A stretch of 64,000 nucleotides of DNA from Pseudoruegeria sp. HB172150 (GTDB lineage: Bacteria; Pseudomonadota; Alphaproteobacteria; Rhodobacterales; Rhodobacteraceae). The stretch covers positions 62,001 through 126,000 of the forward strand of contig NZ_JAATNG010000006.1 of NCBI RefSeq assembly GCF_013184805.1, in the 5' to 3' direction. The position numbers and the translations under genes were made by a program. The notes beneath the pieces are model-generated. The model was not told where the DNA came from. It did no database searches and saw only the letters and a list, made by a program, of their open reading frames with translations. Positions 11,022 through 18,839 of this stretch are shown one piece after another (within the stretch, counting starts at the first letter, position 1; the number at the start of each line of letters is the position of its first letter).

Positions 11022-11927
11022 GTGACAGCCAAATCCATCGACGACGTGCAGGCGCTGCTGGCCGCGCAGGACTATGTCTGCGGCCGCCCGCTCGCCACCG
11101 TCGTGTTCCTCGCCCTGAAACTCGGCAAGCCGCTGTTCCTCGAAGGAGAGGCCGGCACCGGCAAGACCGAGATCGCCAAGGCCATCGCCGCCGCGCTGGG
11201 CCGCCGGCTGATCCGGCTGCAATGCTACGAGGGGCTCGACGCCGCCGCCGCGGTCTACGAATGGAACTTCGCCGAGCAGATGATCGCGATCCGCACCGCC
11301 GAAGCTGCCGGCGGCGCCGACCGCGACGTTCTGAAGGACGAGCTTTTCACCGAAGACTACTTGATCGAACGCCCGCTGCTGCAAGCGTTGCGCCCGCAGG
11401 ACGGCGGCCCGCCGGTTCTGCTGATCGACGAGCTTGACCGCACCGACGAACCGTTCGAGGCCTTCCTGCTGGAGGCGCTGTCGGATTTCCAGGTCACCAT
11501 CCCCGAGCTCGGTACCATCAAGGCGGAACATCCGCCCATTGTCATCCTCACCTCGAACCGCACCCGCGAGGTCCACGACGCGCTGAAACGCCGCTGCCTC
11601 TATCACTGGGTCGACTACCCCGCCTTCGACCGAGAGATCGAGATCCTCCATGCCCGCGCCCCCGAGGCCGCCGAGGCGCTGTCCCGCGAAGTGGTCGCCT
11701 TCGTCCAGAAACTCCGAACTGAGGACCTGTTCAAGAAACCCGGCGTCGCCGAAACCATCGACTGGGCCAAATGCCTCCTCGCCCTCGACGTCATCGCCCT
11801 CAGCCCCGAGGTCATCGCCGACACGATTGGCGCAATCCTCAAATACCAGGACGACATCCAGCGCATCCAGGGATCGGAGGCCAAGCGTCTGCTGGACGAG
11901 GTCCGCGCCGATCTCGAAACCGCGTGA
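11022..11927 (+). CDS. coxD: MoxR-type AAA+ ATPase, CoxD-like
   Basis: 301-residue AAA+ ATPase of the MoxR family. Walker A GEAGTGKT at 42-49, Walker B LLIDELDR near 133-140, sensor region VILTSNRTREVHDALKRRC with the arginine-rich segment. In carbon monoxide dehydrogenase clusters CoxD is the membrane-associated ATPase that acts with the VWA protein CoxE in maturing the Mo-Cu site. Here a CoxE-like gene follows after 59 bases, an XdhC-family gene about 5 kb downstream, but no CODH structural genes lie in the window, so the client may be another molybdenum hydroxylase. The coxD symbol is by similarity and context. Confidence 0.75.
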   Translation: MTAKSIDDVQALLAAQDYVCGRPLATVVFLALKLGKPLFLEGEAGTGKTEIAKAIAAALGRRLIRLQCYEGLDAAAAVYEWNFAEQMIAIRTAEAAGGADRDVLKDELFTEDYLIERPLLQALRPQDGGPPVLLIDELDRTDEPFEAFLLEALSDFQVTIPELGTIKAEHPPIVILTSNRTREVHDALKRRCLYHWVDYPAFDREIEILHARAPEAAEALSREVVAFVQKLRTEDLFKKPGVAETIDWAKCLLALDVIALSPEVIADTIGAILKYQDDIQRIQGSEAKRLLDEVRADLETA

Positions 11928-11980
11928 TGCTTCTTCTGGTCGAAAATATCCCGGGGGTATGGGGGCAGAGCCCCCATTCT
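11928..11980 (+). repeat. Interspersed hairpin element, copy 1
   Basis: Begins TGCTTCTTCTGGTCGAAAAT, continues ATCCCGGGGG and ends in a perfect 8-bp stem ATGGGGGC-AGA-GCCCCCAT at 11959-11977. An inverted, slightly diverged copy lies at 63567-63620. It fills the gap between the CoxD-like stop and the CoxE-like start. I recall this kind of element as common behind genes in Rhodobacteraceae. The stem could terminate or stabilise transcripts. Confidence 0.7.
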
Positions 11981-11986
11981 CTGTGA

Positions 11987-13252
11987 ATGGCCGAACAGTT
12001 CCCCCGGGACATCCCCGAAGACGGCAAGCTGACCCACAACATCGTCTGGTTCGCCCGCGCGCTGCGCAAGGCCGGTCTCCCCGCCGGTCCCGGCCGCACG
12101 CTCGACGCGATCCGCGCGGTGGAAGCCGCGGGCTTCACCTCGAACCAGGATTTCTACTGGGCGCTCCACACCTGTTTCGTCTCGCGCCCCGAGCACCGCG
12201 CCGTCTTCGCCCAGATCTTCCGGCTCTACTGGCGCGATCCCCGCTACATGGAGCACATGATGGCGATGCTGCTCCCGGCGATCCGCGGCGTGCAGGAAGA
12301 GCGCGGGCCGCAGGCCGGCGAAAAACGCGCCGCCGAGGCGTTGCTCGATGGTGTCGAACGGGAGGCACCGGAGAATACCCCGACCGAAGACGACGAAGAC
12401 GCCGAGATACGGATCGACGCCTCGCGCACCGCTTCCTCCGAAGAACGCCTCCGCACCCTCGATTTCGAGCAGATGAGCACCGAAGAGGCGGCGCAGGCCA
12501 AGCGCATGCTTGCGCGCCTGACCCTGCCCGTGAAACCACTTCAGTCGCGCCGATTGATGGGCGACCCGGCCGGCCCGCGCCCCGACTGGCGCGCCACCAT
12601 GCGCGCGGCGATGCGGCGCGGCGGCGAAGTCCATGAATTCTCAAGGCGCGCGCAGCGCACCCGCTGGCCGAACCTCGTCGTGCTTTGCGATATTTCCGGC
12701 TCCATGTCGCAATACTCCCGCGCCGTTCTGCATTTTCTCCATGCCGTCTCGAACAACAAGGGCGCCGGATGGGCCAGGGTGCACGCCTTCACCTTCGGCA
12801 CGCGCCTGACCAACATCACCCGCCACCTCGCGACCCGCGATGTCGACGCGGCTTTGGCGACCGCGGGTGCAGAGGCGCAGGACTGGGAAGGCGGCACCCG
12901 CATCGGCCAGTGCCTGCACGCCTTCAACCGCGACTGGTCGCGCCGCGTGCTGGGGCAGGGCGCCGTGGTCCTGTTGATCACCGACGGGCTCGACCGCGAC
13001 GACCCGGCACTGCTGGAGCGCGAGATCGAGCGCCTGCACCTCTCCGCACGCCGTCTCATCTGGCTCAACCCGTTGTTAAGATGGGAAGGTTTCGCGCCAC
13101 GCGCGCGCGGCATCCGGTCCATTCTGCCTCATGTCGACAGCTTCCGCGCCGGCCACAACATCGCCTCGCTCGAAGGGCTGGCCGCCGCCATCTCCGACCC
13201 GCGCGACCACGGCGAAAAGGCGCGCCTACTTCGGCTGATGCACGCCGACTGA
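11987..13252 (+). CDS. coxE: VWA domain protein, CoxE-like
   Basis: 421-residue CoxE/von Willebrand A protein. After a helical N-terminus typical of CoxE proteins (VWFARALRKAGLPAGPGRTL, FYWALHTCFVSRPEHRAVF) and an acidic linker (~130-150), the VWA domain carries an intact metal-ion-dependent adhesion site: DISGSMS at 235-241, a conserved Thr (GTRLTNITRHL), and ITDGLDRDD. In cox systems it partners the MoxR ATPase CoxD to remodel the molybdoenzyme active site. It follows coxD in one operon, with the hairpin element between them. No membrane segment is seen, so it is cytoplasmic or peripherally bound. Confidence 0.78.
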   Translation: MAEQFPRDIPEDGKLTHNIVWFARALRKAGLPAGPGRTLDAIRAVEAAGFTSNQDFYWALHTCFVSRPEHRAVFAQIFRLYWRDPRYMEHMMAMLLPAIRGVQEERGPQAGEKRAAEALLDGVEREAPENTPTEDDEDAEIRIDASRTASSEERLRTLDFEQMSTEEAAQAKRMLARLTLPVKPLQSRRLMGDPAGPRPDWRATMRAAMRRGGEVHEFSRRAQRTRWPNLVVLCDISGSMSQYSRAVLHFLHAVSNNKGAGWARVHAFTFGTRLTNITRHLATRDVDAALATAGAEAQDWEGGTRIGQCLHAFNRDWSRRVLGQGAVVLLITDGLDRDDPALLEREIERLHLSARRLIWLNPLLRWEGFAPRARGIRSILPHVDSFRAGHNIASLEGLAAAISDPRDHGEKARLLRLMHAD

Positions 13253-13380
13253 CCGGACCACACCGGCTTTCCTTCGGAACAATCAATCCGAGCCCGCGTT
13301 GAGCCAGCCTACGGGGCGGAGCGCCTTCAAGGCACCCGCAACATGCGCCGTTCCCGTCGCGAAACCGAAAAGGATAGGAC

Positions 13381-15345
13381 ATGACGCATCGCATTCGCAT
13401 CCTCAGCGCCTCGACGGCGCTGGTCGCCCTCACCGCCGTCGTGCCGCAGATGGCCGCCGCGCAGAGCATCCCCGGTTGCAGGCAGAATATCGAGGCCAAG
13501 CCAATCGCCGAGATCACGCAGGAAAACCTGACCGGCGAGATCACGATGGAAGATCTGCCTGGCCTGCTTGAAACCGAGGGTGTCTGTGTCCGCAAGAACG
13601 GCAAGCTGCGTGTGCTCGCACCGGAAGGCGAGGAAGCGCAGGCTGAGACACCCGTCGAGAACCCACCCGCAGAGGAAAACGCCGAGGCGCCCGCCACCGA
13701 AGCCCCGGCGGCCGAAGAAGATGCGGCTGCAGCCGAATCCGAGGGTGCCATGCCTGCCGTCGGAGAAGTCGTCGAAGGTCTGTCGGAAAACCTGCCGGGC
13801 ATGACTTCCGACGAGTCCGGCGATGCACAGCAGGCCGAAACCGCCGAGCCGGCCGAAACCCCGGCCGCAAAAGCGCCCGCGCAGGCCGAAGCTTCGGCAG
13901 AGCCCGCCGAACAGCCAGCCGCGGAAACGACCGAGGAGACCGCGCAGGCCCCCGCCGAGGAACCTGCCGCGGAACCCGTTCAGGAAGAAACCGCAGAGGC
14001 CCCCGCTCCGGCGGCTGAAGCCGAAGGCGATGCCGAGGCGACCGCCGAGACGGACCAGCCCGCAGCCGACCCTGCGCCGGAACAGACCGCGGAATCCGCC
14101 GAGACGCCGGAGCAGACCAACGCGCCGACGGTCGGTGAAATCGTCGAGGAACTCGCCGGGCCGGAAGTCGCGGCAGAACTGACGGGCGAAGACGCAGCTC
14201 CCGAGAAAAATGCCAAGGTGTCCGAGGAAACCGCTGCCAACACGTCAGCTGATGGTGAACTGGCCGTTTCCAACGACAATGGCAAACCTGTTGCTGCCGC
14301 GGCCGCCGCAGCAGACGAAGGTGCCGGGGAAGAAGTCGTCGAAACCAAGGAAACCAAGGTGACAGAGGAAAACTCCCGCTCGAGCGGTGAGGAGTTTGAA
14401 GAACTGAAGCCGAAGGCCAGCGCAGAAGCGAATGATGACGACGATGGCGGTCTCTCGAACTTCGAGAAATTCGCGCTCGGCGCGGCCGGTCTCGTCGTGC
14501 TCGACCAGCTGATCGGCAACAACGATCAGGTCGTGGAAAACACCGGCGACCGCGTCGTGGTCCAGCGCCAGGACGGCAGCTACTACGTGCTGAAGGACGA
14601 GGATGAACTCCTGCGCCGCCCCGGCTCGGACGTGCAGACCGAAACCTTTCGCGACGGTTCGACCCGCACCACTGTGACCCGCCCCAACGGCGTGAAGGTG
14701 GTCACCATCTCCGCCGCTGACGGTACCGTCCTGCGCCGCGCCAAGGTGATGCCCGACGGCCGCCAGGTCGTGCTCTTCGACGACACTCAGGGTGCCGAGC
14801 CCGTGCAGGTCAGCCAGCTGCCTGCCGCGCCGACGCAGGAAACCGTCGAGGCCGACAACGAAGCCGCGCTGCGCGCCGCGCTGGAGGCTGAACGTGCCGC
14901 CGACGTGGGCCGCCGCTTCACCCTCAGCCAGGTGCGCAACATCCGCGAGGTGCGCCAGCTGATGCCGGAGATCAACATCGACGCCATCAACTTCGAGACG
15001 GGTTCGTCCGCGATCCGTCCCAACGAGGCCGAAGATCTCTACGCGCTGGGCGAGGCGCTTCGCGAGTTCATCGGGGAGAACCCGGAAGAGCTGTTCCTGA
15101 TCGAAGGCCACACCGACGCCGTCGGCGGCGCCGCGATGAACCTCGCCCTGTCGGACCGCCGCGCTGAAAGCGTCGCGCTGGCGCTGACCGAGTATTTCGA
15201 CGTGCCGCCCGAAAACATGATCGTTCAGGGCTACGGCGAGGAATTCCTGCTGGTGCCGACCGATGACGCAGAGCGGACCAACCGCCGCGCCACCGTGCGC
15301 CGGATCACGCCGCTGCTGACCGTCGCCGACGCCAGCGCGGGCTAA
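13381..15345 (+). CDS. OmpA-family outer-membrane protein with long acidic Ala/Glu/Pro linker
   Basis: 654 residues. Signal peptide in the first ~28 residues (ASTALVALTAVVPQMAAA), a short Cys-containing segment (IPGC, EGVCVRKNGKLRV), then ~280 residues of Ala/Glu/Pro-rich sequence that is probably disordered and would span the periplasm. FEKFALGAAGLVVLDQLIG is a single hydrophobic stretch near 360-380. The C-terminal OmpA peptidoglycan-binding domain (~530-650) has INFETGSSAIRP, LIEGHTDAVGG and LALSDRRAESVALAL. AAAGGATAGG precedes ATG 13381. It stands alone, between the coxDE pair and a strong terminator. Confidence 0.85.
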   Translation: MTHRIRILSASTALVALTAVVPQMAAAQSIPGCRQNIEAKPIAEITQENLTGEITMEDLPGLLETEGVCVRKNGKLRVLAPEGEEAQAETPVENPPAEENAEAPATEAPAAEEDAAAAESEGAMPAVGEVVEGLSENLPGMTSDESGDAQQAETAEPAETPAAKAPAQAEASAEPAEQPAAETTEETAQAPAEEPAAEPVQEETAEAPAPAAEAEGDAEATAETDQPAADPAPEQTAESAETPEQTNAPTVGEIVEELAGPEVAAELTGEDAAPEKNAKVSEETAANTSADGELAVSNDNGKPVAAAAAAADEGAGEEVVETKETKVTEENSRSSGEEFEELKPKASAEANDDDDGGLSNFEKFALGAAGLVVLDQLIGNNDQVVENTGDRVVVQRQDGSYYVLKDEDELLRRPGSDVQTETFRDGSTRTTVTRPNGVKVVTISAADGTVLRRAKVMPDGRQVVLFDDTQGAEPVQVSQLPAAPTQETVEADNEAALRAALEAERAADVGRRFTLSQVRNIREVRQLMPEINIDAINFETGSSAIRPNEAEDLYALGEALREFIGENPEELFLIEGHTDAVGGAAMNLALSDRRAESVALALTEYFDVPPENMIVQGYGEEFLLVPTDDAERTNRRATVRRITPLLTVADASAG

Positions 15346-15364
15346 GACCGCCAAACCCCACGGT

Positions 15365-15396
15365 AAGGCGCGCCAAACCCGGCGCGCCTTTTTTTT
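15365..15396 (+). terminator. Rho-independent terminator after the OmpA-type gene
   Basis: GGCGCGCC (15367-15374), loop AAACCC, GGCGCGCC (15381-15388), then eight T. A textbook intrinsic terminator 20 bases after the stop codon. Confidence 0.95.
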
Positions 15397-15424
15397 CTTC
15401 GGCAGGGCGCACGCCGCACCGGAA

Positions 15425-15438
15425 TTGACCTGCATCAA
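15425..15438 (+). promoter_or_regulatory. FNR/FnrL-like box upstream of YeeE/YedE genes
   Basis: TTGACCTGCATCAA differs from the FNR consensus TTGAT-N4-ATCAA at one position. TAACAT at 15460-15465 could be the -10 element, which would place the start point near 15472 and the box centre at about -41, the classic class II activator position. Binding is inferred. Confidence 0.65.
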
Positions 15439-15465
15439 GGTGCCGATCCCTACAGACCCTAACAT

Positions 15466-15481
15466 ATTCGCATCAACGAAT
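15466..15481. promoter_or_regulatory. ATTC-N8-GAAT inverted repeat, candidate SqrR/BigR-type operator
   Basis: ATTCGCATCAACGAAT matches the ATTC-N8-GAAT form I recall for the sulfide/persulfide-sensing repressor SqrR of Rhodobacter. It overlaps the start point predicted from the neighbouring -10 element, as expected for a repressor, and sits 20 bases before the first YeeE/YedE start. No sqrR gene is in this window. Confidence 0.6.
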
Positions 15482-15501
15482 GTGATAAGGAGGGCGCGGA
15501 C

Positions 15502-16053
15502 ATGGTGCTCAACTGGAAAATCGGCGGGCTGTTGCTGGGGCTGGTGTTCTTCCTCGCAGTGGCACTCGTCAAACCGATCGGGGTCTCGACGCAGTTCGTC
15601 ATCCTCGATGGCGTCGCCTGGAACGCGGTCGACAGTTCGGTCGTCACCCAGACAGAGGAAGGCTACACCTCCACCAACGCCTATCTCGACAAGTCGAGCG
15701 GCAAATATGCCAAGGCGGTGGCCAACCCGCTGAACTACAGCTTCCTCTTCGTGCTTGCGATGGCGCTGGGCGGCTTCGCCTCCGTCATGCTGCGCGGCGG
15801 GCTGGAACGCGGAGAGCGGCAGATGCCGCAGTTGTGGCGCACGAATTTCGGCGGCAGCACCCTGACCCGCTATGCCGTCGCCTTCGTCGGCGGCTTCATC
15901 GTCCTTTACGGCGCGCGCCTCGCGGGCGGCTGCACCTCGGGCCACATGATGTCCGGCATGATGCAGACCGCGCTGTCAGGTTACATCTTCGCCGCCGGCG
16001 CCTTTGCGGCCGCCATCCCCACCGCAATGCTGCTCTTCAGACAGGAGGCCTGA
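15502..16053 (+). CDS. YeeE/YedE family half-transporter, first subunit (sulfur compound uptake)
   Basis: 183 residues with about four to five membrane spans. GARLAGGCTSGHMMSGM is the conserved Cys motif of YeeE/YedE (DUF395) proteins, whose structurally studied member carries thiosulfate through a path of Cys residues. Here the family's two halves are separate genes, as in PmpA/PmpB-type pairs. It is co-transcribed with the next gene (three bases between stop and start). The upstream FNR-like and SqrR-like sites predict expression under low oxygen and in response to sulfide or persulfide. The exact substrate (thiosulfate, sulfide, persulfide) is inferred. Confidence 0.8.
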   Translation: MVLNWKIGGLLLGLVFFLAVALVKPIGVSTQFVILDGVAWNAVDSSVVTQTEEGYTSTNAYLDKSSGKYAKAVANPLNYSFLFVLAMALGGFASVMLRGGLERGERQMPQLWRTNFGGSTLTRYAVAFVGGFIVLYGARLAGGCTSGHMMSGMMQTALSGYIFAAGAFAAAIPTAMLLFRQEA

Positions 16054-16056
16054 GCC

Positions 16057-16641
16057 ATGGAAATCCTTCTGGCAATCGTGATCGGCACCGCCTTCGGCTT
16101 CGTCCTCGACCGGATCGGTGCCGCCAACCCAACCTGGATCGGCCGCATGCTGTCGCTGACCAACCTGCACCTGATGAAGACGATCCTGCTGGCCATCGGC
16201 ACCGGCTCTGTCCTGATGTTCGGCGGTCAGATGCTGGGCCTGGTCGACGTCGGCCACATGTCGGTTAAGGCTGCCTATGTCGGCGTCTTCATCGGCGGTT
16301 TGCTCCTTGGCTTCGGCTGGGCGCTCTCGGGCTACTGCCCGGGAACCGCGGTCGTCGGCGCCGGGGCAGGGCGCAAGGACGCGCTGGCCTTCATCGCTGG
16401 CGGCCTGCTCGGCGCCGCAGCCTACATGGCGACCTACCCGGGGTGGAAGGCCAGCGGCATCTTGAACGACATCGCCGGCGGCAAGGTGACGCTCGGAACT
16501 GTGCCCGGTTCGTCCTACGAGGGGCTCACGGCCATTCCGGGCGACCTCCTCGGCCTGCTCCTGGGCGCCGCCTTCATCGTCGTGGCCTTCGTTCTCCCGG
16601 AACGGCTCTCGGGCCAGGGCAGGGCGGTGCCTGCGGAGTAA
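16057..16641 (+). CDS. YeeE/YedE family half-transporter, second subunit (DUF6691-like)
   Basis: 194 residues with about five membrane spans. FGWALSGYCPGTAVVGAGAGRKDALAF carries the conserved Cys of the second YeeE half, equivalent to the GGCTSGH motif of its partner. PGSSYEGLTAIPGDLLGLLLGAAF fits the C-terminal part of this subgroup. It is translated from an ATG with GACAGGAGG upstream that overlaps the end of the first subunit. The pair probably forms one channel. A strong terminator-like hairpin follows at 16765. Confidence 0.8.
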   Translation: MEILLAIVIGTAFGFVLDRIGAANPTWIGRMLSLTNLHLMKTILLAIGTGSVLMFGGQMLGLVDVGHMSVKAAYVGVFIGGLLLGFGWALSGYCPGTAVVGAGAGRKDALAFIAGGLLGAAAYMATYPGWKASGILNDIAGGKVTLGTVPGSSYEGLTAIPGDLLGLLLGAAFIVVAFVLPERLSGQGRAVPAE

Positions 16642-16764
16642 GACGGGTCCGGGTTCAGACGGAGGCATAAGCCGGACATCCCGCTTTTCCGATACTTTCG
16701 CGGCGGTGTCCGGCCTGGTTGAAACCCGATCCGCACACGCTGCGGTTCTTCCCTTCGCAGCGCG

Positions 16765-16797
16765 GGGCCCGGAGGAGCATACCTCCGGGCCCGTTTT
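16765..16797 (+). terminator. Strong hairpin terminator between transporter pair and XdhC gene
   Basis: Perfect 11-bp stem GGGCCCGGAGG / CCTCCGGGCCC (16765-16775 and 16782-16792) around the loop AGCATA, followed by GTTTT. It ends the transporter transcript before the XdhC-family gene. Confidence 0.85.
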
Positions 16798-16854
16798 GCA
16801 TCTGGTCCTCGCCGCGTCCCATCCCCATATTGCGGAGGGACAGAGGAGGCCGCC

Positions 16855-17853
16855 ATGGACAAGACGATAGAAACCAAGGGCTTCGACGACATTCTCGAAA
16901 CCGCACTGGAATGGCATCGCGCCGGCAAGGGCGCCGTGCTGGCAACCGTCGTGCAGACCTGGGGCTCGGCCCCGCGCCCAGTCGGCGCCAATCTCGCCGT
17001 CTCGGGAGAGGGCGAACTCGCCGGTTCCGTCTCCGGCGGCTGCGTCGAAGGCGCGGTCGTCGCTGAAGCCTTCGAGGTTCTGGACACCGGCGAAAGCCGG
17101 CTTTTGACCTACGGCGTTTCCGATGACGAAGCCTTTGCCGTCGGTCTCGCCTGCGGCGGCACGATCCGCGTCAAGGTCCAGCCCATCGGCGATTACGAGG
17201 ATGGCCTGCCAGAGGATGTCCTCGCCGAAATCGTCACGGCCCGCGCCGAACGCCGCCCCATCGCCTATGTCGTCGACACCGAGACATGGAAACGCCGCAC
17301 CGCCGGGCCGGAGGAATTCCCCGACCGCTTCCGCGCCGACCGCTCCGGCTTCGACGAGGACGAAAAGACCTTCGTCGCCATCCACAACCCGCCGCTCCGC
17401 ATGGCTGTCATCGGCGCCGTCCACATCGCCCAGCCGCTCCTGCAGATGGCCCGGCTTGCCGGCTACGATCCCGTCCTGATCGACCCGCGCGAAGCCTTCG
17501 CCTCGGAAAGCCGCTTCCCGGAGGAAACCATCAACCACGACTGGCCTGACGAGGCGCTGGCGGATTACGGCCTCGACGCCCGCACCGCAGTAGTGACCCT
17601 GACTCATGACCCCAAGATCGACGACCCCGCGATCATGGCGGCGCTGAAATCCGACATCTTCTACCTCGGCTGCCTGGGCTCCACCCGCACCCACGCCAAG
17701 CGCGTCGCGCGTCTGCAGGAGGCGGGCTTCACCGAGGATCAGATTGCCCGGATCCACGCCCCGGTCGGCCTCGACATCGGCGCGAAATCCCCGGCGGAAA
17801 TCGCCATCTCCGTCATGGCCGAGATCACCCAGACGCTGCGGCAGAAACGATGA
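16855..17853 (+). CDS. XdhC/CoxF-family molybdenum hydroxylase maturation protein
   Basis: 332 residues with both family domains. The N-terminal XdhC_CoxI domain reads VLATVVQTWGSAPRPVGANLAV, SGGCVEGAVV and GLACGGTIRV, with the conserved Cys that binds molybdenum cofactor. The C-terminal Rossmann-like domain (from ~175) has AVIGAVHIAQPLLQMA and LGCLGSTRTHAKRVARL. XdhC-type proteins hold and sulfurate the cofactor for xanthine-dehydrogenase-like enzymes; the CoxF member serves CO dehydrogenase. AGGAGG precedes ATG 16855. It overlaps the molybdopterin-binding gene by four bases and probably works with the coxDE-like pair 3.6 kb upstream. Confidence 0.85.
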   Translation: MDKTIETKGFDDILETALEWHRAGKGAVLATVVQTWGSAPRPVGANLAVSGEGELAGSVSGGCVEGAVVAEAFEVLDTGESRLLTYGVSDDEAFAVGLACGGTIRVKVQPIGDYEDGLPEDVLAEIVTARAERRPIAYVVDTETWKRRTAGPEEFPDRFRADRSGFDEDEKTFVAIHNPPLRMAVIGAVHIAQPLLQMARLAGYDPVLIDPREAFASESRFPEETINHDWPDEALADYGLDARTAVVTLTHDPKIDDPAIMAALKSDIFYLGCLGSTRTHAKRVARLQEAGFTEDQIARIHAPVGLDIGAKSPAEIAISVMAEITQTLRQKR

Positions 17854-18839
17854 AATTCGGACCCGTTCCTGTTGGCGAGGCCGCGGGCGCGGTCCTCGCC
17901 CACTCCCTGGCGCTCGGCGGCAGGAAGCTGCGCAAGGGCAGGGTGCTCGAAGCCGACGACATCACCGCAATAAGAGACGAAGGTCTCGACGAGGTCATCG
18001 TCGCCCGCCTCGACACCGACGACCTCGGCGAAGACCCCGCCGCCACCCGCATCACCGCCGCGATGATCCCCGACCCGGAAGCCGCCCATCTTCGCGTGAC
18101 CAGGGCCAGCACCGGCCGCGTCAACGTCTACGCCACGACCTTCGGTGTCCTCGATATCGACGTCGACAAGATCGAGGCCGCGAACCGCATCGATCCGCTG
18201 GTCACCATCGCCACGCTCCCGCCCTTCGCCCGCTGCGGCGACCGCACCATGGTGGCGACCGTCAAGATCATCGCCTACGGCGTCGCCGAGAAATCGGTGG
18301 ATATGGCCGAAGTCCTCGTTGCCGACGCCATGCGCCTCTGCCCCGTGCAGCTGGCCACCGCCACGCTGATCCAGACCGATATCGGCGCCGGACCCGGCAA
18401 GGGCGAGGACGCCATCGCCGGCCGTCTCGACGCGCTGGGCATGGACCTGACCGGTACCGAAACGGTCCCGCACCGCACCGCGCCCCTCGCCGAAGCGGTG
18501 GCGCGCGCGAAAGGCGACCTCGTCCTGATCCTCACCGCCTCCGCCACCTCCGACCCGCATGACGTGGCACCCGAGGCGGTGCGGCAGGCAGGCGGCACAG
18601 TGACCCGCTTCGGCATGCCGGTGGATCCCGGCAACCTGCTGTTCATCGGCGAGCAGGGCGGCCGCCCGGTGATCGGCCTGCCGGGGTGCGCGCGTTCGCC
18701 GGCACTGAACGGCGCCGACTGGGTGCTGGAACGCGTGGCCTGCGGGCTCGAGGTCACCGACGCCGACATCGCCGCGATGGGGGTAGGGGGCCTGCTCAAG
18801 GAAAGCCCCGCACGGCCGCATCCGCGCGAAAAACGCTGA
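17850..18839 (+). CDS. Molybdopterin-binding protein (MoCF/MoeA-like domain)
   Basis: 329 residues. The N-terminus (PVGEAAGAVLAHSLALGGRKLRKGRVL) resembles the opening of MoeA and related proteins; the region from ~165 is a MoCF_biosynth-like molybdopterin-binding domain with LATATLIQTDIGAGPGKGEDAIAGRL and GDLVLILTASATSDPHDV. GRPVIGLPGCARSPALNGADW closes the domain. In cox and xdh loci such proteins (sometimes fused to a MobA-like domain, absent here) handle the cofactor or its cytidylation. Start overlaps the XdhC gene (ATGA), so they are translationally coupled. Confidence 0.75.
   Translation: MKFGPVPVGEAAGAVLAHSLALGGRKLRKGRVLEADDITAIRDEGLDEVIVARLDTDDLGEDPAATRITAAMIPDPEAAHLRVTRASTGRVNVYATTFGVLDIDVDKIEAANRIDPLVTIATLPPFARCGDRTMVATVKIIAYGVAEKSVDMAEVLVADAMRLCPVQLATATLIQTDIGAGPGKGEDAIAGRLDALGMDLTGTETVPHRTAPLAEAVARAKGDLVLILTASATSDPHDVAPEAVRQAGGTVTRFGMPVDPGNLLFIGEQGGRPVIGLPGCARSPALNGADWVLERVACGLEVTDADIAAMGVGGLLKESPARPHPREKR

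Follow-up and report, generated by a model that had tools for sequence, protein, structure and literature searches.

The stretch of DNA analysed here (the window, 64 kb of Pseudoruegeria sp. HB172150) carries two half-size YeeE/YedE genes of the PmpA/PmpB type. They had been described from the letters alone as a sulfur transporter pair, and their Pfam Sulf_transp matches bear this out (Table 1). PmpB is reported to correspond roughly to the N-terminal half and PmpA to the C-terminal half of YeeE, with one conserved cysteine in each (PMC11582611); the present PmpA has 183 residues against about 130 in that report. In this protein Cys144 is invariant among 18 aligned relatives, and the translation of PmpB reads with one cysteine. 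The pmpB-type gene is present at 33 of 42 pmpA loci, compared over locus stretches of differing length. The first of the two terminator-like hairpins lies 3' of an upstream OmpA-domain gene (13381-15345) and sets that gene apart from the pmpAB promoter. The neighbours of pmpAB (11022-18839) encode an AAA ATPase, a CoxE-type VWA protein, an XdhC/CoxI protein and a protein with a molybdopterin-binding domain, which suggests a molybdenum hydroxylase maturation neighbourhood.

Table 1. Genes and promoter elements of the pmpAB region; positions are those of the window.
Feature	Coordinates	Strand	Remarks
Terminator-like hairpin with T run	15365..15390	+	Scan found 2 against a shuffle mean of 1.2; weak alone
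FNR box TTGACCTGCATCAA, predicted FnrL site	15425..15438	+	Centre 15431.5; position conserved before pmpA orthologues
-10-like hexamer TAACAT	15460..15465	+	21 nt 3' of the FNR box; predicted start near 15472
Candidate SqrR/SoxR-type operator, ATATTC-GCATCAAC-GAATGT	15464..15483	+	Conserved before pmpA and tsoY orthologues
RBS-like AAGGAGGG	15487..15494	+	Read from the sequence
pmpA-type gene, 183 aa, C-terminal-half YeeE/YedE	15502..16053	+	ATG start codon at 15502; Pfam Sulf_transp positions 177-308
pmpB-type gene, 194 aa, N-terminal-half YeeE/YedE	16057..16641	+	Sulf_transp positions 12-146
Terminator-like hairpin 3' of pmpB	16765..16792	+	Same weak scan (2 found, shuffle mean 1.2)

The three promoter elements named in the initial annotation, an FNR box, TAACAT and ATTC-N8-GAAT, all read as described, and the double site at this promoter is confirmed. 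The box fits TTGAY-N4-RTCAA and is one letter off TTGATN4ATCAA, while TAACAT agrees with TATAAT at four of six positions. The operator, with the core ATTC-GCATCAAC-GAAT (15466-15481), overlaps the -10 and the predicted start, and its palindrome extends beyond the first description (CATATTCG..CGAATGTG). From the predicted start the centre of the FNR box would fall at about -41 and that of the operator near +2. No sigma-70 -35/-10 pair was found in 15300-16900, as expected if the promoter is activator-dependent.

Neither motif is unusual by itself in a sequence of this length. TTGAYN4RTCAA occurs exactly in the window only as the pmpAB FNR box, and AYATTCN8GAATRT only as the pmpAB operator; with mismatches allowed, there are 5 operator-like sites (at most two mismatches; shuffle mean 2.7) and 2 FNR-like sites (at most one; shuffle mean 3.7), so that for each motif the count in 64 kb is not above chance. 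The genome (5,055,836 bases) holds 19 exact FNR boxes (TTGAYN4RTCAA) and 41 exact cores (ATTCN8GAAT). Two box/core pairs lie within 60 bp, where 0.019 are expected (P about 2e-4, or about 3e-6 with the observed spacing class imposed afterwards). These are the pmpAB promoter and C19:200076-200135, which precedes tsoY; a third pair, its FNR box with one mismatch, stands before hemA. Other exact FNR boxes precede cydA, fnrL, the COX1 gene of ccoN position beside fnrL, ccoG/FixG, a universal stress gene and coxB/ctaC, all of them classical FnrL targets. For several more, no convincing gene start was found behind the box.

The same sites recur upstream of pmpA in relatives, as the initial annotation had proposed to look for. 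PmpA is present in 42 of 295 Rhodobacteraceae genomes, and the 150 nt upstream of the 42 genes were compared with dinucleotide shuffles and with 640 control windows of equal length from these loci; one genome (G220) has another pmpA match, at a contig end and lacking upstream DNA, which was left out. The exact FNR box is found in 15/42 promoters (shuffles 0.025; controls 0/640), TTGAYN4RTCAN in 34/42 (shuffles 0.14; controls 3/640) and the exact operator core in 25/42 (shuffles 0.27; controls 1/640), these relatives not being independent samples. At least two cores occur in 6/42 and an FNR-type box together with a core in 19/42, both with shuffle means of 0.000 and no case among the 640 controls. 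Many relatives have TTGATN4ATCAT at this place, which matches the FNR site imperfectly. Fixed coupling of the two sites is opposed by the promoters with a box and no exact core (15/42) and those with a core and no box (6/42); two of the 42 have neither.

Where both sites are present, they are phased. The offsets from box start to core start in the 19 promoters are +12 (9 cases), +37 (10), +39 (2), +41 (2) and +43 (1), with no others. Ten promoters, like the present one, have one operator 37-43 nt 3' of the box start. In the other nine, the box shares bases with a first operator at +12, its final ATCAT running on into the ATTC of the operator, and some of these have a second operator at +37. 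Distances to the start codon are 69-90 nt for 34 of 35 FNR-type boxes. A TANNNT hexamer lies 22 nt 3' of the FNR-type box in 15 of 48 cases, 21 nt in 4 and 23 nt in 6, with 0 to 4 at each other distance from 12 to 33 nt; the peak at 22 nt is the spacing expected for FNR centred near -41.5. Pairwise identity in the columns flanking the motifs is 0.27, near saturation, so the motifs are not just inherited text. A set of named genomes, which partly overlaps the 42, gave 80 pmpA promoters with a box in 58, an operator in 58 and both in 46. These loci include Ruegeria, Phaeobacter, Leisingera, Rhodovulum and Labrenzia/Roseibium. Both sites are found at four Labrenzia/Roseibium loci and in one Filomicrobium MAG, which we take to belong to families other than Rhodobacteraceae. 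G152, the one further genome of the genus that was searched, has a single mismatch in its pmpA operator core, and the site is not among the extended-operator matches at up to one mismatch.

A search for an sqrR homologue had been set as a test of the proposal, and a SqrR-type gene is indeed encoded (L008:1327-1743). Its product is identical at 67 of 101 residues (66%) to the best solved relative (PDB 13ct, 6o8l and others, listed as 'Transcriptional regulator, ArsR family'). PDB 6o8l and its kin are, we presume, R. capsulatus SqrR. A second protein (L043:1114-1569), identical to the same relative at 61 of 96 residues, is here named SoxR for its sox-like neighbours: the gene adjoins, in L043:36-4322, genes read as soxS/V/W/X/Y-like and a full-length YeeE-type gene. 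The two proteins are 75% identical over 106 residues and each keeps two cysteines. An HTH_5 search of the genome listed 18 matches to ArsR-type proteins, and among the frames inspected, which did not include the proteins of L002 and L004-L007, the two-cysteine pattern occurs in these two only. At 94 and 97 bits both fall short of the 155 bits that NCBIfam requires for the BigR equivalog, and so they do not count as BigR by the strict NCBI definition. FnrL is encoded at L041:1541-2296 (NCBIfam NF045989, 435 bits, cut-off 300). Absence of the regulators from the genome is therefore rejected, SqrR-type protein, SoxR and FnrL all being encoded. Across the family, a SqrR-type match (E<=1e-20) is found in 42/42 genomes with pmpA and 195/253 others (P 5e-5, uncorrected for kinship).

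The ATTC-N8-GAAT motif that the initial annotation attributed to SqrR has been published as the deduced site of R. capsulatus SqrR (PMC9774250). The 103 exact cores in the pmpA and tsoY promoters, those of HB172150 among them, refine the operator to AYATTC-N8-GAATRT. In the 5.06 Mb genome this occurs exactly at three places: pmpAB, tsoY and C1:1677236. Allowing up to one mismatch gives 21 places, several of them inside apparent genes, against 0 for the reversed pattern. The third exact site is independent of the derivation of the motif and precedes an operon (L237:2792-7207) whose first gene encodes a metallo-beta-lactamase-fold relative of the Blh dioxygenase part (373 bits, under the full-length equivalog cut-off of 625), followed by a TIGR01244 sulfur transferase fused to an SQR-like oxidoreductase and by a SulP permease. 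SqrR owes its name to targets of the same kind as this persulfide-dioxygenase/SQR (pdo-SQR) operon. The 250 nt upstream of the operon hold no FNR box at zero or one mismatch. A one-mismatch refined operator also lies 132 nt before sqrR, which was not used in the derivation. The core ATTCACTCTTATGAAT, with different flanks (TTATTC..GAATTT), is found before soxX.

The gene behind the second composite site of the genome belongs to the TsoY family (L039:5149-6363; NF047644, 533 bits, cut-off 150), membrane proteins with selenoprotein relatives that are treated in a review of selenoproteins. Its promoter has a -10-like TATATT 21 nt 3' of the FNR box, equal to the distance at pmpAB. In the 72 tsoY promoters compared, from 83 genomes with tsoY (L067 and L082 were included through the composite pattern), a box occurs in 14, a core in 50, two cores in 21 and both kinds of site in 9. 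Searched by itself, the composite FNR/operator pattern is found in 33 of 295 family genomes and its reverse in none. By coordinates, 8 of the 35 places are pmpA and 8 are tsoY. Seven more precede cytochrome oxidase subunit I by reading of the N-terminus (one checked with Pfam), 2 others resemble those sites by DNA alone, 2 precede subunit II (one checked), 1 cydA and 1 hemA, the other 6 being unassigned. In the wider class, 13 of 380 genomes have the pattern and 3 its reverse, so that outside the family it is near background. At the subunit I promoters (L058, L059, L062, L071, L072, L077 and L081) palindromes resembling ATTCTARAACNYGAAT stand 3' of the FNR box. Their centre is nearly fixed (TARAAC), and they may belong to another factor; the composite pattern alone is thus no proof of SqrR. 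A second fixed geometry appears before hemA (L218:1501-1554 and L333-L362). In the promoters of the best 30 of the matches listed, an FNR box that is exact or one mismatch off is found in 24 and an exact ATTCN8GAAT in 14, and in 11 of the 30 the core begins 72 or 73 nt after the start of the box.

Since the joined sites recur before pmpA in many relatives, the pmpAB promoter very probably works as a two-input switch, and the reading of it as a joint FNR and SqrR promoter is supported by the motifs themselves, by the conservation of their phasing, by the fact that the genome encodes both regulators and by the same operator before the pdo-SQR operon. At low oxygen, FnrL would bind the box and recruit RNA polymerase to a promoter that has no -35 element. 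A SqrR-type ArsR repressor, either SqrR or its paralogue SoxR, would cover the -10 and the start and so block transcription. By analogy with R. capsulatus SqrR, persulfide or polysulfide would link the two cysteines of the repressor and release it. We infer that the PmpA and PmpB half-transporters, with a presumed sulfur substrate, would then be made under oxygen shortage if sulfane sulfur is also available. Confidence is strong that a SqrR-type repressor uses the operator and good that an FNR-type activator uses the box; that both act, and in the proposed sense, is probable.

Among other explanations the one that keeps most ground, though rather unlikely, is that the operator is used by SoxR, or by both paralogues, so that thiosulfate oxidation and the transporter would be induced together. 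SoxR is as near to the solved relative as SqrR is (61/96 and 67/101) and shares three quarters of the aligned residues with it, and two related repressors are reported to act jointly in H. denitrificans (PMC12423496). Against this, the core before soxX, one site only, differs in its flanks from those of pmpAB, tsoY, pdo and sqrR. In addition, G152 has a single SqrR-type match, tail to tail with terC as SqrR is in HB172150, and keeps its tsoY operator with one mismatch. The single, terC-syntenic gene argues for SqrR as the binder, despite the degenerate pmpA operator of that genome. That the box serves a protein of the CRP/FNR family other than FnrL, with nitric oxide or redox state as the second input, is improbable. 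A second protein with what we read as an E..SR-type recognition helix is encoded (L197), and in Dinoroseobacter shibae FnrL and three Dnr proteins are reported to act on similar sites (PMC5398030); yet the exact boxes of the present genome precede the classical FnrL set of fnrL, cydA, COX1, FixG/CcoG and coxB. It is slightly harder still to believe that the box is real and FnrL represses or has no effect, leaving the sulfur input alone to matter: exact cores do exceed FNR boxes before tsoY (50 and 14 of 72), but a box centred at about -41, a phased -10-like hexamer and the lack of a -35 form an activating arrangement. Chance resemblance, for which it could be said that either motif singly is no rarer than expected in 64 kb, is hardly credible given the phasing and the recurrence before orthologues, and a chance origin of the sites was rejected on the pmpA promoter counts against shuffles and controls and on the pair statistics.

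More tentatively, and on balance less likely than not, these promoters may be part of a family-wide regulon for anoxia together with sulfane sulfur, with phased FnrL and SqrR sites before pmpAB, part of the tsoY genes and, in the second geometry, hemA, and with pdo-SQR under SqrR only. In the one genome where it was located, the oxygen-consuming pdo-SQR operon has the SqrR operator alone. If the regulon is real, the cell would choose between oxygen-dependent burning of persulfide and an oxygen-independent route for handling it. The supply of heme would also enter the circuit by way of SqrR, reported as heme-binding in the title of a cited work. At the nine of 42 pmpA promoters where box and first operator share bases, FnrL and SqrR would be expected to compete directly, binding of one shutting out the other. 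Apart from this wider regulon, the proposed switch would tie sensors of oxygen (FNR) and of reactive sulfur (SqrR/BigR) at single promoters, at fixed spacing, in a family abundant in the sea, and would place tsoY under the same control. It would give a testable reason for when PmpAB works and for what TsoY may do.

Several known systems share parts of this arrangement. In Hyphomicrobium denitrificans, pmpA and pmpB are reported not to respond to thiosulfate (PMC11582611), which counts against the proposed switch, and SoxR-type control is described there as extending into anaerobic metabolism (PMC12423496). Among open-licence papers, as judged by titles and the starts of abstracts, none was found on a promoter shared by SqrR/BigR and FNR/FnrL. 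In Acinetobacter baumannii, BigR controls a yeeE-yedE-pdo2 operon (PMC7315123). As there, a persulfide sensor of the SqrR/BigR type is predicted here to repress a YeeE/YedE pair. In A. baumannii, however, the pair and pdo2 form one operon, whereas in HB172150 the pair is a unit by itself, pdo-SQR lies in another operon, and the transporter promoter contains an FNR box. R. capsulatus SqrR, with sqr and trxC among its described targets (PMC9774250, PMC9995734, PMC10044876), shares with the present system the ATTC-N8-GAAT site, a two-cysteine repressor and SQR and persulfide genes as targets; the target descriptions in these papers mention no FNR box, which is present here. The box itself is like those of the Dinoroseobacter shibae FnrL regulon, where TTGAT-N4-ATCAA-like sites are centred at about -41.5 at activated promoters (PMC5398030); the main text of that paper mentions neither YeeE nor thiosulfate. 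Finally, YgaV of E. coli is likewise a SqrR/BigR homologue tied to anaerobic respiratory genes, but little overlap is reported between its regulon and the FNR regulon, with 8 of 142 genes shared with FNR or ArcAB (PMC9774250), whereas here the SqrR-type and FNR sites share promoters. The inputs and the proteins are all familiar from such systems; it is their coupling that is new.
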